Made by a program: the position numbers and the translations under genes. Below are positions 39,189 to 54,665 of a stretch of DNA of 64,000 nucleotides, in pieces; the first letter of the stretch is position 1; each line of letters begins with the position of its first letter. The DNA is from Paracoccaceae bacterium (GTDB lineage: Bacteria > Pseudomonadota > Alphaproteobacteria > Rhodobacterales > Rhodobacteraceae): assembly GCA_012270125.1 (NCBI GenBank), contig JAAXIY010000048.1:1-64000 (forward strand), written 5' to 3'. Below the pieces are notes generated by a model, which was not told the origin of the DNA, made no database searches, and was given only the letters and a program-made list of their open reading frames with translations.

Positions 39189-40643
39189 ATGTCGAAGGTA
39201 ATTAAAAATGGAACCGTTGTAACTCATGATTTGACTTACAAAGCCGATATTTTAATCGAGGGTTCAAAAATTAGTGAAATCGGACAAAATTTGTCTGGTG
39301 ACACTGAACTTGATGCGACAGGTTGCTATGTTATGCCAGGTGGTATCGATCCGCATACCCATTTGGAAATGCCATTTATGGGCACCTATTCAAGCGATGA
39401 TTTTGAGAGCGGTACTAGAGCCGGTCTTGCTGGTGGTACGACCATGGTTGTAGATTTTGCTTTGCCTAATCAAGGTGAAAGCTTGCTTGATGCTATAAAG
39501 CGTTGGGACAATAAATCTACTAGAGCAAATTGTGATTACTCTTTTCACATGGCGGTTACTTGGTGGGGTGAGCAAGTATTTAATGACATGAAAACGGTTA
39601 TAGAAGAGCGTGGAATAAACACATTTAAGCATTTTTTGGCATATAAAGGTGCTTTGATGGTTAATGATGATGAATTATATGCATCTTTTTCACGCTTAGC
39701 CGATCTTGGCGGTATCGCGATGGTTCATGCGGAAAATGGTGATGTTGTTGCTGAATTGAGCGCTAAGCTTTTGGCCGATGGCAATAATGGTCCAGAGGCT
39801 CACGCGTATTCTAGACCCAGTCAGGTTGAAGGTGAAGCCACAAATCGTGCTATTATGATCGCAGATATGGCCGGTGTTCCGCTTTATGTTGTTCATACTT
39901 CTTGTGAAGAAGCTCACGAGGCGATCCGACGTGCTAGACAAGCTGGGAAGCGTGTTTGGGGTGAGCCATTGATTCAACATCTCACTTTAGATGAAACTGA
40001 ATATTTTAATAAAGATTGGGATCATGCTGCTAGAAGAGTAATGTCTCCACCATTTAGAAATAAAAAGCATCAGGATAGTTTGTGGGCTGGTTTACAAGCT
40101 GGATCTTTGAGTGTGGTTGCTACGGATCATTGTGCATTTACCACGGAGCAAAAACGTTTTGGGGTGGGTGATTTTACTAAAATTCCAAATGGGACGGGAG
40201 GCTTAGAAGATAGATTACCTATGCTTTGGACGCATGGAGTGAGAACTGGCCGACTAACAATGAATGAGTTTGTTGCGGTAACGTCTACAAATATTGCAAA
40301 AATACTAAATTGTTATCCTAAGAAAGGTGCTGTGCTTGTGGGGGCGGATGCTGATTTGATTGTCTGGGATCCAGAAAAGTCTAAGACGATTAAGGCATCA
40401 ACTCAACAATCAGCGATTGATTACAATGTTTTTGAGGGTCATACGGTAACCGGATTGCCCAGGTACACTTTATCGAGAGGCTATGTGGCGATTTCTGATG
40501 GCGAAGTTAATACTAAAGAGGGTCACGGCGAATTTGTTGCAAGAAAAGGTAATACCCCAGTCAACCAAGCTCTTTCGAATTGGAAAGATCTTACATCTCC
40601 AACTCCGGTGAAGCGCACTGGGATACCTGCCACAGGTGTTTAA
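39189..40643 (+). CDS. hydA: Dihydropyrimidinase
   Basis: A 484-residue cyclic amidohydrolase. The binuclear Zn site motifs are DPHTHLEMPF (about 55-64), the carbamylated Lys in FLAYKGAL (about 150), VHAENG, VHTS and ATDHCAF. It hydrolyses 5,6-dihydrouracil or dihydrothymine to N-carbamoyl-beta-amino acid, linking PreTA to the preceding amidohydrolase. The length matches bacterial HydA (about 460-485). The ribosome site is TAGGAG. It is followed 22 nt later by an ABC importer set in the same direction. Confidence 0.95.
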   Translation: MSKVIKNGTVVTHDLTYKADILIEGSKISEIGQNLSGDTELDATGCYVMPGGIDPHTHLEMPFMGTYSSDDFESGTRAGLAGGTTMVVDFALPNQGESLLDAIKRWDNKSTRANCDYSFHMAVTWWGEQVFNDMKTVIEERGINTFKHFLAYKGALMVNDDELYASFSRLADLGGIAMVHAENGDVVAELSAKLLADGNNGPEAHAYSRPSQVEGEATNRAIMIADMAGVPLYVVHTSCEEAHEAIRRARQAGKRVWGEPLIQHLTLDETEYFNKDWDHAARRVMSPPFRNKKHQDSLWAGLQAGSLSVVATDHCAFTTEQKRFGVGDFTKIPNGTGGLEDRLPMLWTHGVRTGRLTMNEFVAVTSTNIAKILNCYPKKGAVLVGADADLIVWDPEKSKTIKASTQQSAIDYNVFEGHTVTGLPRYTLSRGYVAISDGEVNTKEGHGEFVARKGNTPVNQALSNWKDLTSPTPVKRTGIPATGV

Positions 40644-40665
40644 GATTTAGGGACAACTAGAACTA

Positions 40666-41448
40666 GTGACTAACGAAACAGTGATTTCAGCGAAGTCGTT
40701 GGATTTAACCTTCCAAACCAACGATGGGCCAGTACATGCTTTAAAAGATGTAAACCTTAATGTAACAAAAGGTGATTTTGTAAGTTTTATTGGGCCATCA
40801 GGTTGCGGTAAAACAACATTTCTAAGAGTTATGGCGGATCTAGACCAGCCAACAGATGGGACCATCACGATTAATGGTGTGTCTCCAAAAGCTGCTCGAG
40901 AAAGTCGGGCATATGGATATGTCTTTCAATCAGCGGGACTGTATCCGTGGCGCACAATAGGAAAAAATATACGCTTACCTTTAGAAATAATGGGGATAAG
41001 CAAGTCTGAGCAAAAAGAGCGAGTTGAAAAAGTTCTAAAGCTAGTTGAGTTAGAAGATTTTGAAAAGAAATTTCCATGGCAGCTTTCTGGTGGCATGCAA
41101 CAAAGAGTATCTATCGCAAGGGCTCTAGCATTTGATGCTGATATTTTATTAATGGATGAACCTTTTGGTGCTTTGGATGAAATAGTAAGAGACTATTTAA
41201 ACGAACAGTTACTGAAACTTTGGCATTCAACAAAAAAAACAATTTGTTTTGTAACCCACTCGATACCAGAGGCGGTATACCTATCCACTAAAATTGTTGT
41301 TATGTCTCCTCGCCCAGGACGAATTATTGATATAATTGAAAGTGATTTGCCTGATAAACGACCCTTGGAGATAAGAGATACTAAAGAGTTTATTGATATT
41401 GCCCAAAGAGTAAGAGAAGGTTTAAGGGCTGGGCATAGTTATGAATAA
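40666..41448 (+). CDS. NitT/TauT-type ABC importer ATPase (pyrimidine-linked)
   Basis: A 260-residue single ABC ATPase with Walker A GPSGCGKTT (about 43-51), LSGGMQQRVSIARA and Walker B LLMDEPFGALD, as in TauB/SsuB/ThiZ. The GTG start has no strong ribosome site. It overlaps the next permease by 8 nt. Its position directly after dihydropyrimidinase suggests import of a pyrimidine, hydantoin or dihydropyrimidine compound; homologous hydA-linked transporters exist, but the ligand is unproven. Confidence 0.9.
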   Translation: MTNETVISAKSLDLTFQTNDGPVHALKDVNLNVTKGDFVSFIGPSGCGKTTFLRVMADLDQPTDGTITINGVSPKAARESRAYGYVFQSAGLYPWRTIGKNIRLPLEIMGISKSEQKERVEKVLKLVELEDFEKKFPWQLSGGMQQRVSIARALAFDADILLMDEPFGALDEIVRDYLNEQLLKLWHSTKKTICFVTHSIPEAVYLSTKIVVMSPRPGRIIDIIESDLPDKRPLEIRDTKEFIDIAQRVREGLRAGHSYE

Positions 41449-42307
41449 GTCGCTCATTCCAATAGTAACAATCTCCATGTTTATAGTGCTAATTTGGTAT
41501 GCTTTTTCAATAGTATTGAATTCGTCATGGGCTTTAGACAAGGCAGAAAGGAATAATCAGAAACTTAGTTTTTCTGAACTTGTTCATGATACCTGGTCTC
41601 AGAAAAAGCCTAAATTACCGACGCCTCATCAGGTAGGCTATGAAATGTGGAAGACGACTTTTGATAAAAAAATTACGTCTAAGCGATCGCTTGTTTACCA
41701 TGGTTGGATAACGTTATCAGCAACATTGGCTGGCTTCATGTTGGGGACGCTTTTAGGTGTTTTATTAGCTTTAGCAATTGTACACGACAAAGCGACAGAT
41801 TTAAGTGTGATGCCCTGGATTATTACGAGTCAAACAATACCAATCTTGGCATTAGCTCCTATGATCATTGTCGTATCTAGCTCAATTGGCTTTACCGGGC
41901 TCATGCCTAAGGCGATCATTTCAATGTACCTTTCTTTTTTTCCAATTGTAGTGGGAATGGTTAAGGGATTGAGATCACCTGACTTACTTGAAATTGATCA
42001 AATGAAAACTTGGTCGGCCTCGCAATTTCAGATTTTGATTAAATTAAGGCTCCCGAAGTCAATTCCTTTTTTGTTTACCTCGCTGAAGCTTGGAATGGCG
42101 GCATCGCTTGTTGGGGCAATTGTTGGAGAGCTACCATCTGGTGCAATCGCTGGTTTGGGAGCTAGAATGCTTTCAGGAAGTTATTATGGACAGACAATCC
42201 AAATCTGGAGTGCATTATTTGCCGCAGCTATCCTTGCAGCTTCATTGGTTGGATTGATTAGTTTAATCCAGGCCTTTGTTTTTAAAAGGATGATGATTGC
42301 TCAATGA
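41441..42307 (+). CDS. NitT/TauT-type ABC importer permease 1
   Basis: A 288-residue permease with an N-terminal helix followed by a hydrophilic stretch of about 60 residues before the main five-helix core, longer than in TauC/SsuC. The EAA-like loop lies near WSASQFQILIKLRLPKS. It overlaps the ATPase by 8 nt and the next permease by 4 nt (ATGA). It likely forms a heterodimeric pore with the next gene product. Confidence 0.87.
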   Translation: MNKSLIPIVTISMFIVLIWYAFSIVLNSSWALDKAERNNQKLSFSELVHDTWSQKKPKLPTPHQVGYEMWKTTFDKKITSKRSLVYHGWITLSATLAGFMLGTLLGVLLALAIVHDKATDLSVMPWIITSQTIPILALAPMIIVVSSSIGFTGLMPKAIISMYLSFFPIVVGMVKGLRSPDLLEIDQMKTWSASQFQILIKLRLPKSIPFLFTSLKLGMAASLVGAIVGELPSGAIAGLGARMLSGSYYGQTIQIWSALFAAAILAASLVGLISLIQAFVFKRMMIAQ

Positions 42308-43155
42308 ATAGTTTTTTCCTATTTTCTATTGTTTTTTGGGTAGCCGCTTGGACACTAAATATTTTTATTAGTCAATCTAACCTTGTTAAAACTAAAATGG
42401 TTGTGCCTCCTATTTTATTTGGAGTATCTTTACTTCTGATTTGGGAGGCCTCAATTAGTGCTTTCGAGGTAAGTCCAGTAATTCTCCCAGCCCCGTCTTT
42501 GGTATTCATAAAATTTATTAACAGCGTTTCAATTCTTTGGGTTGATTTTGTACAGACTTTCGTCAAGGGAGCTTTAAGCGGATATATCTTTGGTTGTTCA
42601 GCAGCTTTTGGTGTAGCTCTTTTAGCAGATCGTTTTAAGTTCTTAGAACGTGGGTTATTGCCGATTGGAACTTTTATGGCAGCTCTTCCCATTGTTGGTA
42701 CGGCACCAATATTGGTAAGGTGGTTTGGTTTTGACTGGGAGTCGAAATCTGCTGTAGTTACAGTGATGGTATTTTTCCCAATGCTGATAAATACTATACA
42801 AGGTTTGCAAATGTCCGATAAAATTCATCGTGATTTAATGCGGACATATAATGCAACATCTTTTCAAACGTTGGTAAAATTAAGATTAGCAGCTGCAATG
42901 CCTTTTATTTTTAATGGACTTAAAATCTGTTCTACCCTAGCATTAATTGGGGCGATTGTAGCTGAATTTTTTGGATCGCCGATTAAGGGAATTGGATTCA
43001 GGATTTCAACAGAAGTTGGCAGGTTTGCATTAGATATGGTCTGGGCAGAAATAACAATAGCGGCAATAACAGGATCGTTGTTTTATGGTGGGATTGTTTT
43101 GCTGGAAAAGGTGGTAACCTTCTGGCACCCGTCGCAAAGAGTAAGATTAAAATAA
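42304..43155 (+). CDS. NitT/TauT-type ABC importer permease 2
   Basis: A 283-residue permease with about seven helices. The cytoplasmic loop YNATSFQTLVKLRLAAAMPF parallels that of permease 1, indicating a duplicated, heterodimeric pair. It overlaps permease 1 by 4 nt and is followed 24 nt later by the binding protein with an AAAGGAG ribosome site. Confidence 0.87.
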   Translation: MNSFFLFSIVFWVAAWTLNIFISQSNLVKTKMVVPPILFGVSLLLIWEASISAFEVSPVILPAPSLVFIKFINSVSILWVDFVQTFVKGALSGYIFGCSAAFGVALLADRFKFLERGLLPIGTFMAALPIVGTAPILVRWFGFDWESKSAVVTVMVFFPMLINTIQGLQMSDKIHRDLMRTYNATSFQTLVKLRLAAAMPFIFNGLKICSTLALIGAIVAEFFGSPIKGIGFRISTEVGRFALDMVWAEITIAAITGSLFYGGIVLLEKVVTFWHPSQRVRLK

Positions 43156-43179
43156 AATTGTAGTTAAAGGAGATTATAT

Positions 43180-44169
43180 ATGAAAAATTTATTTAAATTC
43201 GCCCTTGGTGGCATTGTTATGTTGGTGGCATCCATTGCCTCAGCGTCAGATGATGTAACAATTCAGTTAAAGTGGGTTACACAAACGCAGTTTGCTGGAT
43301 ATTATGTGGCACAAGACAAAGGATTTTATAAAGAGGAAGGTTTAAATGTTACCATCAAACCAGGGGGACCAGATATTGGGCCAATGCAAGTCCTTGCTGG
43401 AGGTGGCGCAGATGTGGCAGTTGATTGGATGCCATCTGCTTTAGCAGCAAGAGAAAAAGGACTTTCTGCTGTAAATATTGCTCAACCGTTTAAAAGTTCC
43501 GGAATGATGCTTACTTGTAGAAAAGATCGCGGAGTAAACTCTGTCTCCGACCTTAAGGGTAAAAACCTGGGTGTATGGTATTATGGTAATGAATATCCAT
43601 TCTTGAGCTGGATGAATAAATTAGGTCTTTCCACAAACGGGGGCTCCGACGGAGTTACTGTTTTTAAGCAAGGTTGGGATATTCTTCCTTTAACTCAAGG
43701 TGATGCAACATGTGTTTCGACAATGGCATACAACGAATATTGGCAGGTTCTTGCTGAAGGCTTAAAACCGTCTGAATTAACAGTGTTTAAGTATGAGGAT
43801 GAAGGTGTTGCGACACTTGAAGATGGTCTTTATGTTTTGGAAGAAAACTTAAAAGACGCGGCTTTCAAAGATAAGATGGTAAGGTTTGTAAGGGCGTCAA
43901 TGAAAGGGTGGAAATATGCTGAGCAAAACCCAGCTGAGGCTGCCGAAATCGTTGTTGACAACGACGACTCTGGAGCTCAGACAGTTGAGCATAACACAAC
44001 CCAAATGGGAGAAATAATTAAGTTAACTGCAGGCAGCAATGGAGCCCTAGATCCTGCAGATTATCAACGTACAGTTGATAGTTTAATGACCGGTGGTTCA
44101 GATCCGGTTATCACTAAAATGCCAAAAGGTGCTTGGACACACGAAATAACTGATCTAGCATTAAAATAA
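43180..44169 (+). CDS. NMT1/THI5-like ABC substrate-binding protein
   Basis: A 329-residue periplasmic binding protein with a signal peptide ending ASIASAS. The N-terminal domain has the NMT1/THI5 pattern: IQLKWVTQTQFAGYYVAQDKG and FYKEEGLNVTIKPGG. Such proteins bind thiamine-pyrimidine precursors or other small heterocycles; a pyrimidine-type ligand fits the operon (dihydropyrimidinase upstream). It is last in the operon and followed 24 nt later by a strong terminator. Confidence 0.88.
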   Translation: MKNLFKFALGGIVMLVASIASASDDVTIQLKWVTQTQFAGYYVAQDKGFYKEEGLNVTIKPGGPDIGPMQVLAGGGADVAVDWMPSALAAREKGLSAVNIAQPFKSSGMMLTCRKDRGVNSVSDLKGKNLGVWYYGNEYPFLSWMNKLGLSTNGGSDGVTVFKQGWDILPLTQGDATCVSTMAYNEYWQVLAEGLKPSELTVFKYEDEGVATLEDGLYVLEENLKDAAFKDKMVRFVRASMKGWKYAEQNPAEAAEIVVDNDDSGAQTVEHNTTQMGEIIKLTAGSNGALDPADYQRTVDSLMTGGSDPVITKMPKGAWTHEITDLALK

Positions 44170-44193: not shown

Positions 44194-44220
44194 GGGGCAG
44201 CTAATGCTGCCCCTTTCTTT
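44194..44220. terminator. Intrinsic terminator shared by convergent genes
   Basis: Perfect 8-bp arms GGGGCAGC / GCTGCCCC with a TAAT loop, followed on the plus strand by TTTCTTTT. It ends the pyrimidine operon. The stop codon of the minus-strand PLP-enzyme gene (44201) lies inside it, and A/T-rich flanks on the other side could let it act bidirectionally. Confidence 0.88.
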
Positions 44221-45376
44221 TAAAAACTGTGTTGAGAGCTTGTTCGAGATCATTTATGAGATCTACTGGGTCTTCAATTCCTGCTGAAATTCTTATAAGG
44301 TTTTCATGTACTGGAAAGTCATCACCAGAGACGGTTTTTCTGTGTTCAATAAGACTTTCAACACCACCAAGAGATGTGGCTGGATAGAAAACTTTACAGG
44401 CTCTAACAACATTTATAGCGTCAGTTTGTGAGCCTTTAACAATGACTGATAGCATTCCGCCAAATTGTCCATTAGTTTGATGTTTTGCAATTTGATGATT
44501 AGGGTGCGTTTCTAAACCTGGATATAGAACTTTTTCTATGAATTCGTGGTTATTGAAATGTTTAGCAAGTAACATCGCATTTTGACTGTTCTTTTCCACA
44601 CGTAGAAATAGAGTTCGTAAGCCTCTTATTAGTAAAAATGCATCTTGTGAGTTTAAGACAGTTCCATGCAATTTCCTTATAGTAAATAAGTTTTCATACA
44701 TGCTGCTTTGTTGATTAAATGACAGGGCACCAGCGGATATGTCGGAATGCCCATTCAGATATTTTGTGGCAGAGTGGAATGAGATATCTGCTCCAAGATC
44801 GAGAGATTTTGTCATTGTTGGAGGCGTCGCAGTAGCGTCCACAATCAATTTAGCTCCAGCTTTGTGAGCCAGCTCTGAAGCAGAAGATATATCTGTAACT
44901 TCCCAATTTGGATTATTTGGTGTTTCAACCCAAACTAACTGTGTAACTCCATTTTTAATGATGGACTCCATACTAGCGAGATCACCAGCCTCATAATAAT
45001 CTACACGAATTCTATTTTTCGAAGCAAAGTTTTGAATTTGACCTAAGACGCCATGGTACATCACTCTCGGTACAGCAATATGAGCTTCTGCTGGCAACAT
45101 TTCTAAGACAGCAGTACATGCTGACATTCCGGATGAAAATAAAAGTGAAGCATTAGCGTTTTCAAGCTCTGAGATAATTTCCTCAGCAAGTTGGGTGGTT
45201 TTATTTCCATCTCGTCTGTACCAGTAAGCTTGTCGTGGCTGATAATTTTCATCCCGTGAATAAGTCGCTGAGTGGTCAATAGATGGGACTACAGAACCTG
45301 TTTCAGGATCGCTAAAATGCAATGCCTGCGCTATTTTTGTAGAAATAGAAAGGTCTTTGTCATTCTTTAGCTTCAT
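44201..45376 (-). CDS. Cys/Met-metabolism PLP enzyme (gamma-synthase/lyase family)
   Basis: A 391-residue fold-type I PLP enzyme. The PLP Lys lies in FHSATKYLNGHSD (about residue 200), with a YSRDENYQPRQAY N-terminal region and SLGGVESLIEHR near the C-terminus. The family includes cystathionine gamma-synthase, cystathionine beta-lyase, O-acetylhomoserine sulfhydrylase and methionine gamma-lyase; exact activity cannot be decided. It lies 27 nt downstream of dmdA in the same operon, so use or release of methanethiol from DMSP-type compounds is an attractive role. Confidence 0.85.
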   Translation of the reverse strand: MKLKNDKDLSISTKIAQALHFSDPETGSVVPSIDHSATYSRDENYQPRQAYWYRRDGNKTTQLAEEIISELENANASLLFSSGMSACTAVLEMLPAEAHIAVPRVMYHGVLGQIQNFASKNRIRVDYYEAGDLASMESIIKNGVTQLVWVETPNNPNWEVTDISSASELAHKAGAKLIVDATATPPTMTKSLDLGADISFHSATKYLNGHSDISAGALSFNQQSSMYENLFTIRKLHGTVLNSQDAFLLIRGLRTLFLRVEKNSQNAMLLAKHFNNHEFIEKVLYPGLETHPNHQIAKHQTNGQFGGMLSVIVKGSQTDAINVVRACKVFYPATSLGGVESLIEHRKTVSGDDFPVHENLIRISAGIEDPVDLINDLEQALNTVFKRKGQH

Positions 45377-45403
45377 TTGCTGATTTTCTTTCGTACTAGA
45401 TGT

Positions 45404-46516
45404 CTAAATGAAAGGTAGGCTAGATATTTCTCCTAAGCGGATTTTATTATCTTGACTATGAACTTCAACAGACTGTTTAGGTAACCAGTAATGCCGGTCG
45501 ATTAAAGAAAGCCCTACATTTTTTTTTAGCCTTGGAGACCAAATAGCAGACGTTATTTGCCCAATTTTTTCATCTCCAACCATAACGGGCCAAGGCATTG
45601 AGCACGTTGGACACTTGTCTCCATCGAAAGTAACCCCTCTGATTTTCTTTTTTACACCGGAGGTGGCAATTTTTTCTAAAGCAGCCCGGCCTATGAAATC
45701 AATCGAGCCATCCAATGAACAAAATTTAGCCAGCCCTATTTCTAGTGGGTTATTTTCTCTCGTAAATTCGTTGCCATAGCTCAGAAGGCCTCCCTCGATC
45801 CTCTCTATTAAGTTTGGACAACCGGGTGAAATTTCAAATTCAATACCTGCCTCCCAAATTGTTTCCCAAAGATCCGAGCCAAGATTGCTATTTTGTAAAT
45901 ATATTTCGAAGCCACCCTGTCTGGAGTAACCAGACCTTGCAATTAGTTGCTGTGTCCCTTGAAATTCAATCCACCCAAATTTAAAAAAATCTATATTTTT
46001 TATTTGATTACCAAATATTTTTGAAATTAAATTTTCCGCTTTCGGCCCTTGGATGGCTAAAGGGCAAACATCGGGTTCAAATACATTCACGTTCATATTT
46101 GCGCCCAAGGCTAAACCTTTTGCATAAAGCAAAACGTCACTATCGGCTATAGAAAGCCAAAATCGTTCTTTGCCAAGTTTTAAAAGAACTGGATCGTTTA
46201 TAATTCCAGCGTTTTCATCAATTATTGGCAAATAATAACAGTCACCAACATCTGCTTTCGATATATTTCTAGGTGTCATTAATTGAACTAGCTTTTCGGC
46301 GTCTGGCCCTGCTATTTCTACCTGTCTTTGACATGAAACATCCCAAATTTGAACATGTTCTCGCAAGTGCCAGTAATCCTCTTCAACAGATTTTTGGAAA
46401 CCTTTTGGAAGTAACATATGATTAACGATAGAGTAGCCAGTCACACCGGCAGCTTCAACATTTTGGGTATAGGCAGTACGTCTTAATCTGCGCGACATAT
46501 TTAAGCCATCAGTCAT
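45404..46516 (-). CDS. dmdA: Dimethylsulfoniopropionate demethylase DmdA
   Basis: A 370-residue GcvT-superfamily protein. It matches my memory of SAR11 DmdA along its whole length: SRRLRRT start, NHMLLP, HLREHVQIWDV, KLVQLMTPR, CYYLPIIDEN, LSIADSDV, PLAIQGPK, ARSGYSRQGGFEIY, GCPNLIERIEGGLLSYGN and the terminal LPFI. DmdA transfers a methyl group from DMSP to tetrahydrofolate, giving methylmercaptopropionate. Glycine cleavage T-protein is excluded by these blocks and by the absence of gcvH/gcvP. AAGGA ribosome site. Unusually, no dmdB/C/D neighbours are present; instead the operon holds an alpha-hydroxyacid oxidase, a ThDP enzyme, an HIUase-like protein and a gamma-family PLP enzyme. A related sulfonium substrate is possible. 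Confidence 0.88.
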   Translation of the reverse strand: MTDGLNMSRRLRRTAYTQNVEAAGVTGYSIVNHMLLPKGFQKSVEEDYWHLREHVQIWDVSCQRQVEIAGPDAEKLVQLMTPRNISKADVGDCYYLPIIDENAGIINDPVLLKLGKERFWLSIADSDVLLYAKGLALGANMNVNVFEPDVCPLAIQGPKAENLISKIFGNQIKNIDFFKFGWIEFQGTQQLIARSGYSRQGGFEIYLQNSNLGSDLWETIWEAGIEFEISPGCPNLIERIEGGLLSYGNEFTRENNPLEIGLAKFCSLDGSIDFIGRAALEKIATSGVKKKIRGVTFDGDKCPTCSMPWPVMVGDEKIGQITSAIWSPRLKKNVGLSLIDRHYWLPKQSVEVHSQDNKIRLGEISSLPFI

Positions 46517-46526
46517 AAGAAGTTCC

Positions 46527-46880
46527 TTACTCTGGTTGAGATGCCCATGTTGAATAGCTATTTGGTGATAAAATTACCGGCATGTGATACCTGGCATTTT
46601 TATTTGGCATTGAAAATCTTAGCACGACTTCTGAAATTATTTGATTATCTGAAGAAGACAGTCCCAAAGAGTTCCAATATTCACCAGTTTCAAAAATCAA
46701 TTCGAACCTATCTTCCTTTTGAGCTAAAGATAAATCCACATTTTTTTCCAACCGCCCGCTTGGGTCAATATGTGAAATAAAAACTTCCAAATTTTGTGTA
46801 ATATTCATCAGACGTACGCGAATTCCACTAGCATGCGTTCCGTTCATTCCATTCAAAGTGTGTGAAGATACAATAGCCAT
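46527..46880 (-). CDS. Transthyretin/HIUase-like protein with altered signature
   Basis: A 117-residue protein with the transthyretin-like fold of 5-hydroxyisourate hydrolase: N-terminal SSHTLNGMNGTHASG (His7), SGR (Arg43), FETGEYW, and RYHMPVILSPNSYST (His99). The defining C-terminal YRGS tetrapeptide is replaced by W112-A-S-Q. His7, Arg43 and His99 correspond to HIUase catalytic residues, so a hydrolase acting on a different substrate is plausible. No other urate-pathway gene is nearby. Its ATG overlaps the ThDP-enzyme stop by one base and it lies 10 nt before dmdA, so it is firmly inside this operon. Confidence 0.75.
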   Translation of the reverse strand: MAIVSSHTLNGMNGTHASGIRVRLMNITQNLEVFISHIDPSGRLEKNVDLSLAQKEDRFELIFETGEYWNSLGLSSSDNQIISEVVLRFSMPNKNARYHMPVILSPNSYSTWASQPE

Positions 46881-48607
46881 TATTCAATAGATGCCTTGTC
46901 ACGTTTATCAGAAGTAGCAGCAACAATTGGACTTATCACACCGCGGCATTTTACATTCAAGCAGGCCGTCTTTCCACTTTTTATTGCCCTTGCTAGCGCG
47001 GGTTTTAATTCACTTCTAGTTGTAACCAATTCTCCGTATCCACCAAGGCCTTCGAACATAGTGTGAAAAGGAATGTCACGAAAGTCAGTTGCGTAGTGCT
47101 GTCCGTTAGCAAATAAGCGCTCTTGTTGCTGACTTATACAGTCTAGACCCCCATTATTATCAATGACCACAATAATCGGTAGACCTTCCTGAAATGCACT
47201 TTCAATCGATAGACCACCTGAAAGAAACGCACCGTCTCCCGAAATAACAACGACATTTTTATCGGGATATGCTGCTTTCGCGGAAATCCCAAAACTAATT
47301 CCAACACCTAAAAGCGAATAGTTTCCAGGATGCATAATGCCTCCAAGCTTTTTACCCCGCCATCCAGAAATATTAACCGCAATTTCATTCCAAAAGTGAG
47401 TATTCCCACCATCAAAAACAAGCCAGTCCTCGTCATTCATTTCTGAAATTATATCGACGCCAAGTTGTAAAGGATGCATCTTTCGGTTTGATTTTGAATC
47501 CTCAATTTCCTCCTTCAATAAGTGATTTTCCCAGTCTTCAACCCATTTTTTGCGACGTTCAGTTTGTAGCTCAAACCAATTTTCCCACTTACGATTAATT
47601 GAAGTCATAGCATCGAGGAAGGCAGCTGGATGAGATAATAGTATTTCATCTGCAGCGAAATTATATTCTAACTCTTCGCTGCTACCATTAACGCAGATAA
47701 GTTTTGTATCCTTTGGAATAAACGGAGGGTTACCAAAATTCATTTGGTTATCCAGTCGACCACCGATCATTATTACTGTGTCTGCCTCATGAATAGCCAT
47801 CTTAGAAGGATGATATTGATGAAAATCTGCAAGCCCCATATTGGCAGAACAATCCTCACCCAACAATTTTGTATGGTAAGGTACATTAAAAATAGGTATT
47901 TTAAGTTTTTCACCAACTTCTGCGAGGCTTTTCTCTGAATGTGACCACCAAATTCCGTGACCCCCAATAATCACTGGGCGCTCAGAGTTTTCGACAATGT
48001 TCAATATATCTGTAAGTCTTTTTGGTTCTGGCCAAGCTCTTTGTGGTCGAGTTTGGTGTCTTACCCATGGGCGTTCATCTCTGCCAGCATCTTCTTCGAA
48101 AGATGAAAACATGATATCTACAGGTAAACTAAGGTGAACAGGCCCTGGATAACCCGACGTGGCCGCTTGCCAAGCCCGTTCAACAAACTCACCTATACGT
48201 TCTCCATCGGTAATTTGAATAGAATATTTCACAAGTGGTTTTGCGATCGCTACGTCATCTATTTCTTTAAAGCCGCCTGCTCCTTGTCTCTTTAGAGTTG
48301 ATGAGCCTGTAATGAAAATTACTGGACTGCGCTCCCCCATTGCTTCCAACATTGCGGGTACAGCATTAGCAAAACCTTCAGGTCCAACCAAACAAACAGT
48401 TGGTTTTCGATGTATTCGTGCATGGCCGTCAGCTAAATGACCTGCAATTTGTTCATGGGGAGTATTTATGACTGGCATTTGGCATTCCATGAACCCTTCT
48501 AGTGCTGGGTTGCAAAACCCCCCGGCTAAAGTGAAAACATGGTCAACACCTTTTTCCTTCAATGAGTGGGCTAGTAATGCTCCGCCGCGTAGCTTGGCTT
48601 TTGCCAT
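46880..48607 (-). CDS. ThDP-dependent lyase/decarboxylase (acetolactate synthase-like superfamily)
   Basis: A 575-residue three-domain ThDP enzyme. The catalytic Glu lies in TPHEQIAGHLADGHAR (about 49-64), and the Mg/ThDP motif is GDGAFLSGG...DNN in the C-terminal domain (about 455-485). Layout is like acetolactate synthase, 2-hydroxyacyl-CoA lyase, oxalyl-CoA decarboxylase and 2-oxoacid decarboxylases; FAD or CoA dependence is not evident. Glyoxylate carboligase, which lacks this Glu, is unlikely. It lies 46 nt after the hydroxyacid oxidase gene (GGAG ribosome site), so it may act on the 2-oxo acid that enzyme produces. Substrate unknown. Confidence 0.85.
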   Translation of the reverse strand: MAKAKLRGGALLAHSLKEKGVDHVFTLAGGFCNPALEGFMECQMPVINTPHEQIAGHLADGHARIHRKPTVCLVGPEGFANAVPAMLEAMGERSPVIFITGSSTLKRQGAGGFKEIDDVAIAKPLVKYSIQITDGERIGEFVERAWQAATSGYPGPVHLSLPVDIMFSSFEEDAGRDERPWVRHQTRPQRAWPEPKRLTDILNIVENSERPVIIGGHGIWWSHSEKSLAEVGEKLKIPIFNVPYHTKLLGEDCSANMGLADFHQYHPSKMAIHEADTVIMIGGRLDNQMNFGNPPFIPKDTKLICVNGSSEELEYNFAADEILLSHPAAFLDAMTSINRKWENWFELQTERRKKWVEDWENHLLKEEIEDSKSNRKMHPLQLGVDIISEMNDEDWLVFDGGNTHFWNEIAVNISGWRGKKLGGIMHPGNYSLLGVGISFGISAKAAYPDKNVVVISGDGAFLSGGLSIESAFQEGLPIIVVIDNNGGLDCISQQQERLFANGQHYATDFRDIPFHTMFEGLGGYGELVTTRSELKPALARAIKSGKTACLNVKCRGVISPIVAATSDKRDKASIE

Positions 48608-48653
48608 TAATGATACTCCTGATTCACTTTATTTTATTTACCATTTATAACCA

Positions 48654-49796
48654 TTATCGAATATTTTTGGAGATACCGTCATATAAAACATCTCCTGAAA
48701 TTTTTTCTAAATCATTGATACCCAATTGTGCCATTACAACTCCTATCTCGTCTTTAAGAAGCGATAGATAGTCGTTAAGGCCTTTTTTGCTGGATGCTGC
48801 TAGAGCCATCATTATCGGCCTTCCTAGCATAACGAAATTAGCTCCAAGTGCTAAAGCTTTTACTACATCTTCTCCATTTCTGGCTCCGCTATCAAAAATT
48901 ATTGGCATGTTGGGGCCAACAGTGTTTCTTATTTTGGGTAAAGCACTCAAAGCGGGAGGCGAGCTATCTAATTGTCTACCACCATGATTAGATACCCAAA
49001 TTGCATCCACACCTGCGTTTTGAACACGGCTTGCGTCGTCTGTATCCATTATACCTTTAACAATTAAGTTGCCTTTCCATTTTTCCCTTAATGCATCAAG
49101 AAATTCCCAATTAGCACCGGCCCGACTAGCATTTCTATCAAACCTATTTTCGGATCCATGTCGAAAATTTTTTGGTTCAGGGATCCCTTTGAAAAGCGTA
49201 CTTAGTGACCAGTGTGGATGAAGTGAAAAATCCACAAATTGTTTTAAACCTATTTTAAAAGGCACAATAAAGCCGTTACGGAGGTCGCGTACCCGACGCG
49301 ATACCACAGGAACATCAACTGTCAAAATTAACGTTTTATATTCAGCTGCTTTAGCTCGATCTACTAACGTCCAAGCGTCTTGAGTTGGCCCGTTGACGTA
49401 TAGTTGAAACCAAGTTTGGTCTTTTCCCCATTTTTTAAGATCTTCGAGACTTGAAGAGGCAGCAGTCGAAACACAAAGCGGAATATTAAATTTTTTAGCA
49501 GTTTCTGCTAAATTTTTGTCTGCACCTGGCCAAGCTAGATCGCACATGCCCATGGGAGCAATTCCAAAAGGAAAATCAAAGGAATAATTTAGAAATTTAG
49601 AATTGAGTTTAGGATCCTTAATTTCAGCTAAAACTTTTGATTTTAAGAAAATATCATTGAAGATTTCGGAGTTTCTATCAGAAGCGATTTCTCGACCAGC
49701 AGAACCTTCGATAAAATCAAATATCATTCTAGGCAATTTTCGTTTTGCCTTAGCTCTAGCATCTTCGAAACTTATTATGCTTTTGGAGCCCAACAT
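48654..49796 (-). CDS. FMN-dependent alpha-hydroxyacid oxidase/dehydrogenase
   Basis: A 380-residue TIM-barrel flavoenzyme of the glycolate oxidase/lactate dehydrogenase (LldD)/mandelate dehydrogenase family. It has the N-terminal DFIEGSAG (about 27-34), LTVDVPVVSRRVRDLRNGF in the middle, and the catalytic His/Arg in SNHGGRQLDS. It oxidises an (S)-2-hydroxy acid to a 2-oxo acid. AAAGGA ribosome site. It is the first gene of the operon running through the ThDP enzyme and dmdA, and is divergent from the agmatinase gene across a 221-nt spacer bearing two copies of a TTTAC-N6-GTAAA palindrome. Confidence 0.9.
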   Translation of the reverse strand: MLGSKSIISFEDARAKAKRKLPRMIFDFIEGSAGREIASDRNSEIFNDIFLKSKVLAEIKDPKLNSKFLNYSFDFPFGIAPMGMCDLAWPGADKNLAETAKKFNIPLCVSTAASSSLEDLKKWGKDQTWFQLYVNGPTQDAWTLVDRAKAAEYKTLILTVDVPVVSRRVRDLRNGFIVPFKIGLKQFVDFSLHPHWSLSTLFKGIPEPKNFRHGSENRFDRNASRAGANWEFLDALREKWKGNLIVKGIMDTDDASRVQNAGVDAIWVSNHGGRQLDSSPPALSALPKIRNTVGPNMPIIFDSGARNGEDVVKALALGANFVMLGRPIMMALAASSKKGLNDYLSLLKDEIGVVMAQLGINDLEKISGDVLYDGISKNIR

Positions 49797-50017: not shown

Positions 50018-50992
50018 ATGACTGCGCATGGATATAATAAGGGCCGCTTGAATCTTCCATTTGTTGGAATTTCCACTTTTGCAAAGTCCCCCTTTGTTGA
50101 AGATTGGGACGCTATTGAGGCAGATATCGCTGTTTTAGGAGCTCCTTTTGACTCAGGAACACAATGGCGATCCGGAGCTAGGTTTGGACCTAAGGCTATA
50201 CGTGAAGCGTCTATGCTTTTTAGTTTTGGTCATTCGGGTGCTTATGATCATGAAGACGATATAACCTACTTAGATGAATCAGTCCGGATTGTAGATATAG
50301 GCGATGCCGATATAATTCATACTAAAACTGATCAAAGCCACAAAAATATTGAGGTTGGCGTCAGGAAGATTCTCAGAGCAGGGGCTTTACCTGTTGTCCT
50401 AGGAGGCGATCACTCAGTAAATATACCCTGTATAAACGCATTTGAAGAGTTCTGTGGCGATAATGGTCCAATACATATTGTTCAAATTGATGCCCATTTG
50501 GATTTTGTTGATGAAAGACACGGTGTGACCGCTGGCCATGGAAATCCGATGCGTCGCGCTGCTGAAAAAAGCTATGTTGAAGGGTTGTCACAATTTGGAA
50601 TTCGAAACGTGTCCTCCACTGCGAAGGAAGGGTATGAAGATGCTAAATCATTTGGTTCAGACATATTGTCTGTTCGACAAATAAGAAAACTTGGCGTTGA
50701 ACAGGTTATAAAAAGGGTTCCATCAAATAAAAATATATACGTAACAATAGATATAGATGCGTTTTGTCCGTCAATAGCAGCAGGGACAGGAACACCCAGT
50801 CACGGCGGTTTCTTGTACTATGAGGTTCTTGAGGTTTTACAAGGATTGTCTGAACAAAATAATATAGTGGGTATAGATTTAGTAGAAGTTGCACCAGCAT
50901 ATGACCCAAGTGAGTCTACACAGATTTTAGCAGCACAAATCTTACTAAATTTTTTAGGTTTTATATCGTACTTTAAAAGTAAGAGAGCCTAA
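50018..50992 (+). CDS. Agmatinase-family ureohydrolase
   Basis: A 324-residue binuclear Mn ureohydrolase. Metal ligands appear as GGDHS (His132), IDAHLDF (Asp158, His160, Asp162) and DIDAFCPS, with the DGxxPGTGTP-type loop present as AAGTGTP. Related enzymes hydrolyse agmatine, guanidinobutyrate, guanidinopropionate, proclavaminate or guanidine. SpeB (agmatine to putrescine plus urea) fits the convergent polyamine-type transporter, but the specificity loop (HGVTAGHGNPMR) is not diagnostic to me. Its stop overlaps the end of the convergent permease gene by 4 nt. No urease genes are in the window. Confidence 0.85.
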   Translation: MTAHGYNKGRLNLPFVGISTFAKSPFVEDWDAIEADIAVLGAPFDSGTQWRSGARFGPKAIREASMLFSFGHSGAYDHEDDITYLDESVRIVDIGDADIIHTKTDQSHKNIEVGVRKILRAGALPVVLGGDHSVNIPCINAFEEFCGDNGPIHIVQIDAHLDFVDERHGVTAGHGNPMRRAAEKSYVEGLSQFGIRNVSSTAKEGYEDAKSFGSDILSVRQIRKLGVEQVIKRVPSNKNIYVTIDIDAFCPSIAAGTGTPSHGGFLYYEVLEVLQGLSEQNNIVGIDLVEVAPAYDPSESTQILAAQILLNFLGFISYFKSKRA

Positions 50993-52200
50993 GATGGCGT
51001 GATACCTCTTAGTTTTTCTGAACGTCTCCGCAGCATTTCAATTGTAATTAGTAGAGCTATAGAGATTGCAACGAGAATAGTAGCAACGGCAAGGATAGTA
51101 GGGCTAATTTGTTCTCTCAGACCCGTAAACATCTGCCAAGGCAAGGTCTTTTGGTTTGTTGATCCAACAAACATTACTACGACCACCTCATCGAAAGACG
51201 TAATAAATGCAAATAGTCCTCCAGAAATCACACCAGGCAAGATTAGTGGCATTTGAATTTTGAAAAATGTCTTTATTGGATTTGCTCCCATACTTGCTGC
51301 CGCTCGAGTTAAAGAGCTATCAAATCCAACTAATGTTGCTGTCACTGTAATTATGACAAAAGGGATCCCCAAAACACTATGAGCTAGAATAACTTTAACA
51401 TATCCGACAAAATTCTTATCCAAGCCGATTGTATCCTCCAAAAAATTTCCCACATGAGAATAAAAGAAAAACATCCCTGTGGCAGAAATGATTAATGGGA
51501 CAATCATTGGTGATATTAAAATCGCCATTATTGCTCTTTTGAATGGTACATGGCTTTGACTAAGGCCAATTGCTGCTAGAGTTCCAAGAGAAACAGATAC
51601 CAGAGTTGCAACCGGTGCTATCAATAAGGAATTTTTGAAGGATCGTTGCCATTCGTTGTTAGTAAAGAAATCTCTGTAGTGCTTCAGTGAGTATCCCTCT
51701 GGCTCAAATTTAAGCATTTCGGGAGTAAAAGTGAAAAAATCTTGTGAATTAAATGATAAGGGCATGACAACTAGAATTGGCATAATTAGAAAAACGAAGA
51801 TAACCCCACAGATAACCCTAAAAAGATAGTGCCACAAAACCTGGCTAGACGAGAGATAAGGCTGAAGCTTTGTTCTATACTTTCCTAGGTAAAGCCAGTA
51901 CAAGTACCAACCCAAAAACCAACCTAATAAGAGGCCGAGTATAATCCCGACAATACCAAGAAAGTAAAAAGCTGCGAATGCAAAAAAGGCACATATGATG
52001 TAGCGCACTTTATTTTCATTCTGACCAGTAGAAATTGCTGCAATGCTTATGAAAACGACCACTAATATACCGATTAGCAAACCTAAAAAGCCGGAACCGT
52101 TTGCAACGCCGATTATTAGACCAATCAAACCGCCAACTAATCCCATCGAAGAGAGAGTAAATACAATATTATTTTGGAAAAGGGGCTGTGACTTATTCAT
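50989..52200 (-). CDS. Polyamine-type ABC importer permease (PotC/PotI type), extended
   Basis: A 403-residue permease. The PotC-like core begins near residue 125 (YLFRVICGVIFVFLIMPIL) and carries the EAA loop AAASMGANPIKTFFKIQMP. Preceding it is an extra N-terminal module of about 120 residues with roughly four hydrophobic, Gly-rich helices, absent from E. coli PotC (264 aa). The extension may be a regulatory or assembly domain. It starts 4 nt after the PotB-type stop and is last in the transport operon. It overlaps the convergent agmatinase gene by 4 nt. Confidence 0.88.
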   Translation of the reverse strand: MNKSQPLFQNNIVFTLSSMGLVGGLIGLIIGVANGSGFLGLLIGILVVVFISIAAISTGQNENKVRYIICAFFAFAAFYFLGIVGIILGLLLGWFLGWYLYWLYLGKYRTKLQPYLSSSQVLWHYLFRVICGVIFVFLIMPILVVMPLSFNSQDFFTFTPEMLKFEPEGYSLKHYRDFFTNNEWQRSFKNSLLIAPVATLVSVSLGTLAAIGLSQSHVPFKRAIMAILISPMIVPLIISATGMFFFYSHVGNFLEDTIGLDKNFVGYVKVILAHSVLGIPFVIITVTATLVGFDSSLTRAAASMGANPIKTFFKIQMPLILPGVISGGLFAFITSFDEVVVVMFVGSTNQKTLPWQMFTGLREQISPTILAVATILVAISIALLITIEMLRRRSEKLRGITPS

Positions 52201-53558: not shown

Positions 53559-54665
53559 TTACTTAGCTAACCATGCTTGAAATTTTGCATCTAGATCATC
53601 TCTGTAATCTGCCCAAAAGTCATAATTCATCAAGAAGGCTCTTGATAGATTTTCAGGTGCTGTTGGCATATGAGGAGCCATATCTATACCAAGCTCTGCA
53701 TGCTTTCCAACAAGTGGTGCTGAAGATGCTCTCGCTGGACCATAACTGATGTATTTAGCCTGATCAGCAAGCCGCTGCGTATCTGTAGCGAACATGATAT
53801 AGTCTAATGCTCGAGCCTGTCTTTCTGGGCTTAATCCAGTAGGAATAATCCAACCATCTAAGTCCATAACTTGACCATCCCAAATCATTGCAACAGGTTG
53901 CTTTTGCTCTTCAATTAATGAAAACAAACGACCATTGTAAGTTGCACCCATAATGACTTCACCGTCAGCTAGTAACTGTGGAGTATCTGAACCTGATGAA
54001 ACCCAAATCACGTCGTCTTTAATTGTATCGAGTTTTGCAAGGGCTTGGTTTTGACCTTCTTCCGTTGCAAGCACTTCATATATATCTGCTTTTGCAACCC
54101 CGTCGCAAAGAAGAGCCCATTCCATCTGATTAATAGGAACACTAAATAGTGAGCGCTTTCCTGGATAAGTTTTTGTGTCAAAAACTGCACAAACATCTGT
54201 TGGAGGCGTGTCACCTACTAGGTCTGTGCGGTATCCAAAAGTGGTTGAGTAAACAATCTGTGGAATAAAGCACTCAGAAACTAACATATCTCCAAAATCT
54301 TCAGAAGCTGGAGTGCCATCAGGCGCTGCAGCAAGCATAGTATCTGGGTCAATTTCCATAGCTAAGCCTTCGTCGCACAACTGCATAGCTGGTGCTGCTT
54401 CGACATCTACAACATCCCATGTGATGTTATTCGCCTCGTTCATTGCTCTTAACTGTGCAACTGCTGTTGATGAGCTGTCATCATTAAGTATAGTCACGCC
54501 AGTCTTTGCTGAATAAGGCTCGTGATATGCTTTCAGTTGAGACTTAGAATAAGCCCCACCCCAAGACACGATAGTCATTTCCATAGACATATGACTACCA
54601 GCAAAAGCAACACCTGAAATCAATGCTGCTGATGCAGTTGTCAAAATTGTTTTAGTGAAGTTCAT
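53559..54665 (-). CDS. Polyamine-type ABC substrate-binding protein (PotD/PotF type)
   Basis: A 368-residue periplasmic SBP_bac_8/PotD-type binding protein with a signal peptide ending GVAFAGS. It shows the family start (MTIVSWGGAYSKSQ), a middle block WDVVDVEAAPAM, and a C-terminal region with YGPARASSAPLV. The ligand may be putrescine/spermidine, but PotD-like proteins also carry opines, GABA and other cations. The upstream genes in the operon (DAPAL-like, M24, EutA-like) argue for a non-polyamine possibility. A hairpin with T-run separates it from the ATPase gene. Confidence 0.88.
   Translation of the reverse strand: MNFTKTILTTASAALISGVAFAGSHMSMEMTIVSWGGAYSKSQLKAYHEPYSAKTGVTILNDDSSSTAVAQLRAMNEANNITWDVVDVEAAPAMQLCDEGLAMEIDPDTMLAAAPDGTPASEDFGDMLVSECFIPQIVYSTTFGYRTDLVGDTPPTDVCAVFDTKTYPGKRSLFSVPINQMEWALLCDGVAKADIYEVLATEEGQNQALAKLDTIKDDVIWVSSGSDTPQLLADGEVIMGATYNGRLFSLIEEQKQPVAMIWDGQVMDLDGWIIPTGLSPERQARALDYIMFATDTQRLADQAKYISYGPARASSAPLVGKHAELGIDMAPHMPTAPENLSRAFLMNYDFWADYRDDLDAKFQAWLAK

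Follow-up and report, generated by a model that had tools for sequence, protein, structure and literature searches.

Because dmdA is in use as a marker gene for marine DMSP demethylation, a dmdA-like gene that stands among genes of other kinds raises the question of which compound its product serves. Such a gene lies in the window analysed here, a stretch of 64,000 nucleotides from a Paracoccaceae bacterium (contig JAAXIY010000048.1; source genome of 2.16 Mb in 85 contigs, 96% complete). At positions 44201-49796, on the minus strand, it belongs to a row of five tightly spaced open reading frames, all of which were recovered at the coordinates given in a preliminary description made from the letters alone. 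In the order of the operon, they are:

48654..49796, minus strand: FMN-dependent 2-hydroxyacid dehydrogenase, (S)-mandelate-dehydrogenase-like (HAO), the operon's first gene; PF01070, 390 bits
46880..48607, minus strand: ThDP-dependent enzyme of the acetolactate synthase / 2-hydroxyacyl-CoA lyase / oxalyl-CoA decarboxylase superfamily, in a subfamily of its own; PF02776, PF00205 and PF02775
46527..46880, minus strand: transthyretin/HIUase-family protein (TTR), divergent subfamily; PF00576, 63.5 bits
45404..46516, minus strand: DmdA-family THF-dependent demethylase, operon-specific clade; NF009133, 553.6 bits
44201..45376, minus strand: gamma-family Cys/Met PLP enzyme, accessory gene; PF01053, 338.6 bits

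HAO and the ThDP gene are 46 nt apart, the TTR start overlaps the ThDP stop by 1 nt (TAATG), and gaps of 10 nt and 27 nt separate TTR from DmdA and DmdA from the PLP gene. As also described earlier, the stretch contains no dmdB, dmdC or dmdD. A promoter scan of the operon returned sites no more numerous than in shuffles.

HAO, ThDP, TTR and DmdA form a four-gene operon that is conserved across distant marine bacteria. A search of species genomes, based on a ThDP-enzyme alignment, yielded 487 confirmed stretches, the best 80 of which were kept as loci (given L numbers here), a sample biased towards close relatives of the ThDP enzyme (73-91% identity across the 80). All four genes follow one another in the same order and on the same strand in 50 of these best 80 of 487 loci; 13 more have ThDP-TTR-DmdA, and 5 have HAO-ThDP-TTR. 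Clustering of the ThDP proteins at 90% identity places the 50 four-gene loci in 25 groups, and since the order is kept over that many loci and groups, the arrangement is not a product of chance. The carriers are alpha- and gammaproteobacteria, including Rhodobacteraceae, Hoeflea, Kiloniella, Granulosicoccaceae, Oceanospirillaceae and others, and the loci nearest to that of the window (in the same scan, best 80 of 487) come from Rhodobacteraceae single cells and MAGs. Where at least 5 kb is available on each side (49 loci), the counts are 47 for TTR, 40 for DmdA, 37 for HAO and 31 for a LysR regulator. An order-wide survey of 296 genomes found close relatives of the ThDP enzyme in 4, the window genome included, and among 198 genomes relatives of TTR (46-49%) occur in 2 besides the window's.

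The preliminary description had staked its five-gene pathway on the gene order being kept in relatives: four of the genes do keep it, whereas the PLP gene, among the best 80 of 487 loci, occurs only in the window and its closest relatives, L046-L048, and is therefore regarded as a local addition and was rejected as a core member of the operon. The PLP enzyme passes no equivalog among the matches listed, and its methionine gamma-lyase score (266.2 against a cut-off of 549.7) likewise speaks against the part it had been given in the pathway.

Departures from the four-gene pattern include loci with ThDP and TTR genes and no DmdA. In two of these, from SAR116 (L078 and L080), the pair follows two PhyH-family genes and precedes formate dehydrogenase-like genes; in relatives of Granulosicoccus (L114, L115, L121 and L095), the ThDP gene stands without HAO, TTR or DmdA, accompanied by tripartite tricarboxylate transporter genes. 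Labrenzia includes DMSP producers, and a Labrenzia genome (L076) carries two ThDP-TTR pairs and HAO with no adjacent DmdA.

The demethylase itself passes the NCBIfam DMSP-demethylase equivalog NF009133 (553.6 against a cut-off of 410 bits) and matches the Pelagibacter DmdA of PDB 3tfh with an E value of 2.4e-117. The folate-site Glu and Tyr, numbered 178E and 180Y in PMC7487153 and corresponding to 204 and 206 in 3TFH by an alignment made here, are kept in 65 of 65 sequences. In a tree of 84 proteins, the operon proteins form a clade of 35 rows (SH-aLRT 97), and a second DmdA type, at about 50% identity, forms a separate clade (support 99). At a node with support of 100, the operon clade joins Pelagibacter 3TFH and the dmdA-acuI clade; the branching among the three is a polytomy, which makes DMSP a direct alternative substrate for the operon DmdA. 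Roughly half of the 50 operon genomes searched have a second DmdA copy, 46-53% identical, and the window genome (which is incomplete) has only the operon copy at 1e-70. An AcuI-like gene follows the second-type copy in L187, L202 and L205, with a GntR-type regulator upstream in L202 and L205, which we take to be the dmdA-acuI arrangement of Ruegeria pomeroyi; the AcuI/GntR pattern is lacking in L204, and L186 has a crotonyl-CoA reductase-like gene in the next position instead. The operon DmdA is of the same family as the DMSP-pathway enzymes (R. pomeroyi SPO1913 type and Pelagibacter ubique 3TFH), to which it is about 50% identical, but it differs from them in having its own clade, in having HAO-ThDP-TTR rather than acuI as neighbours, and in sharing many genomes with the dmdA-acuI type. 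Among the positions that set the clades apart are 3TFH 29-32, where YTxY becomes FSxV. Trp at 3TFH position 197 was considered as a marker of DMSP specificity and rejected, as the other DmdA type also has Tyr there.

HAO had been labelled an alpha-hydroxyacid oxidase, a name we have changed to dehydrogenase because the protein resembles membrane (S)-mandelate dehydrogenase (6bfg), its best full-length match in the PDB. The homologue in L064 aligns with 6bfg over the whole chain, membrane segment included, and the LHPRWSL loop is common to both; Gly83, a substrate-pocket position, is found in 57 of 57 HAO homologues. The score of HAO is below the cut-off for the L-lactate dehydrogenase LldD (225.3 against 550; for PRK11197, 266.3 against 376). 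At loci without HAO, a PanE gene lies nearby in L073, L081, L094 and L101 and a GlcD gene in L075, and at other loci HAO is repeatedly accompanied by Ldh_2 or GlcD. The recurrence of four families of dehydrogenase that can use 2-hydroxy acids (HAO, PanE, Ldh_2 and GlcD), including at HAO-less loci, supports a step between a 2-hydroxy acid and a 2-oxo acid. The mandelate pathway likewise couples an FMN dehydrogenase of the (S)-mandelate type (MdlB) to a ThDP decarboxylase (MdlC); however, the best PDB matches of the operon ThDP enzyme are 2-hydroxyacyl-CoA lyase and oxalyl-CoA decarboxylase, benzoylformate decarboxylase is absent among the PDB matches listed for it, and the operon adds DmdA and TTR.

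The nearest structures to the ThDP enzyme are 8vzc and 8vzf (E about 8e-58). It passes no NCBIfam equivalog among the matches listed (best 251.4 against 587), the equivalogs concerned being those of 2-hydroxyacyl-CoA lyase, oxalyl-CoA decarboxylase and acetolactate synthase. TTR had been called HIUase-like and does share with 5-hydroxyisourate hydrolase (HIUase) its transthyretin family and the catalytic residues His7 (79 of 79 homologues), Arg43 (79 of 79) and His99 (77 of 79). Judged by the curated cut-off, however, it is not an HIUase: its score for TIGR02962 is 61.2 against 87.45 bits, the C-terminal YRGS of HIUase is missing from the window protein (YRG is found in 0 of 79 TTR C-termini), and an extra His16 is conserved among its homologues, as is Trp112-x-Ser114. 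Purine catabolism via HIUase was rejected on the cut-off, the motif and the neighbours. Another transthyretin-family gene, 25% identical to TTR, is located on C49 of the window genome.

Genes for SBP56 proteins adjoin the operon in members of several lineages, at L060, L073, L075, L081, L082, L092, L094, L112, L120 and L125, the linked gene scoring 684 bits with the SBP56 Pfam model, and in L201, where the ThDP gene is absent, an SBP56-like protein precedes TTR-DmdA. Type-I SBP56, defined as above 670 bits by a boundary chosen after the scores were known, occurs in 32 of 44 operon genomes (window genome left out) versus 9 of 147 genomes of the order that lack the operon, with a nominal Fisher p of 1.5e-18 from a test that ignores shared ancestry and compares samples differing in taxonomic breadth. 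The type-I SBP56 gene of the window genome is not on the operon contig but on C76, together with ferredoxin-like and CoA-binding-like genes. Methanethiol oxidase belongs to the SBP56 family (PMC5739008), and the linked protein shares that family with bacterial MtoX; but, as its score of 153.8 falls short of the 650 required for the MtoX equivalog, methanethiol oxidation is suggested at the level of the family. In one genome the SBP56 gene on the operon contig (G409:C43:56702-58040) is in three pieces with a stop and looks broken. The separate DmdA clade and its co-existence with the other DmdA type, the recurrence of PanE, GlcD and Ldh_2 at the locus and the SBP56 association all strengthen the earlier idea that a DmdA variant works together with a 2-hydroxyacid enzyme.

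We hypothesize that the four-gene core serves the breakdown of a methylated 2-hydroxy acid, the likeliest class being S-methyl sulfonium compounds such as 4-dimethylsulfonio-2-hydroxybutyrate (DMSHB), with methanethiol as the end, a reading to which we assign a probability of about 0.4; its substrates, reactions and step order are ones we infer. DmdA would pass one S-methyl group to tetrahydrofolate, and the membrane-type FMN dehydrogenase would turn the 2-hydroxy acid into the 2-oxo acid, its electrons going to the respiratory chain; demethylation before oxidation is chemically preferable because a 2-oxo sulfonium intermediate is unstable. The ThDP enzyme would cleave or decarboxylate the 2-oxo acid, TTR may hydrolyse or partner an intermediate of the ThDP step, and the methylthio group would be released as methanethiol and oxidised by the linked SBP56 protein; in the absence of DmdA, the pathway may be entered at MTHB. 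DMSHB is a natural sulfonium 2-hydroxy acid. The cyanobacterium Z. navalis accumulates it, and it has been suggested to be a prominent compound in the ocean (PMC11306096). The reading is also favoured by a DMSP-lyase-family gene that adjoins the operon in L082, L089 and L090. Against it speak the loci that have ThDP and TTR but lack DmdA, and the annotated neighbours of the operon, among which neither an aldehyde dehydrogenase nor an acyl-CoA ligase was seen to recur.

The alternative that survives best would make the operon DmdA a further DMSP demethylase, with HAO, ThDP and TTR serving other compounds (for example, lactate- or mandelate-type hydroxy acids of the same algae) and merely co-regulated with it. 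The node that unites the operon clade with Pelagibacter DmdA and the dmdA-acuI clade favours this, as do the equivalog passed and the invariant folate-site residues, and the window genome holds, besides SBP56, a DMSP-lyase-family gene and two large DmdC-type acyl-CoA dehydrogenases. Yet order and tight spacing kept across wide taxa would be unusual for unrelated functions, and a dmdA-acuI-type copy is often already in the same genome, so that we consider a second DMSP demethylase somewhat unlikely. Acyl-CoA dehydrogenase and hydratase neighbours of the operon were tried as DmdC and DmdD and rejected, their best matches being ordinary acyl-CoA dehydrogenases and enoyl-CoA hydratases.

The substrate could instead be a quaternary amine, since 11 of the 49 loci flanked by 5 kb or more on both sides have an MttB-family methyltransferase nearby, frequently accompanied by PanE and an FAA hydrolase. 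DmdA would then act on the N or O methyls of another methylated hydroxy acid, for instance an N-methylated, betaine-like one; its wider family does contain THF-dependent amine and O-methyl demethylases, and TTR is related to HIUases, which open a nitrogen ring. The SBP56 and DMSP-lyase-family neighbours, however, point to sulfur, and the operon DmdA falls beside sulfonium demethylases in the tree, which leaves an N-methylated substrate unlikely. The methyltransferase and the PanE reductase, often joined by the FAA hydrolase, are a recurrent set beside the operon in their own right (L073 12236-14683, L081, L094, L101, L104 and L125).

It is very improbable that the operon feeds DMSP formation, HAO and ThDP together supplying the missing decarboxylation of DMSHB and DmdA consuming the resulting DMSP. 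In favour, most DMSP producers have no DMSHB decarboxylase identified so far (PMC11306096), and the Labrenzia arrangement would suit such a role. Against it, the route would pass through the unstable 2-oxo sulfonium, and a Methyltransf_2 match of the kind expected for DsyB is present in only 16 of 45 operon genomes; by length, most of these matches look like carotenoid methyltransferases, on which ground a link to DMSP synthesis via this family was rejected.

If the catabolic reading of the four-gene core is true, marine bacteria would have a route for using DMSHB or MTHB, and methanethiol another source. With a separate DmdA clade tied to an operon of its own, some dmdA counts might then stand for another compound. 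The wider claim is tentative, possible rather than probable: an undescribed marine route would degrade DMSHB, together with MTHB, via a dedicated DmdA clade, the FMN dehydrogenase, the ThDP enzyme and a repurposed TTR hydrolase, releasing methanethiol, and part of the ocean's dmdA signal would not be DMSP demethylation. Neither the four-gene operon nor a pathway for degrading DMSHB or MTHB was found in the open-access literature searched, a scope outside which lie most subscription papers and all preprints.

Two further gene sets flank the operon in the window. At 50018-52200 and 53559-54665, an agmatinase-family ureohydrolase (TIGR01230, above cut-off) is found beside PotBCD-like ABC permeases and a binding protein; the set recurs in L047 and L048 and possibly serves the use of polyamines or guanidino compounds. 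On the other side, at 39189-44169, a D-hydantoinase (TIGR02033, 590.7 bits, above cut-off) accompanies an NMT1-type ABC transporter, and the hydantoinase, found also in L046 and L048, looks like a gene for hydantoin or pyrimidine use.
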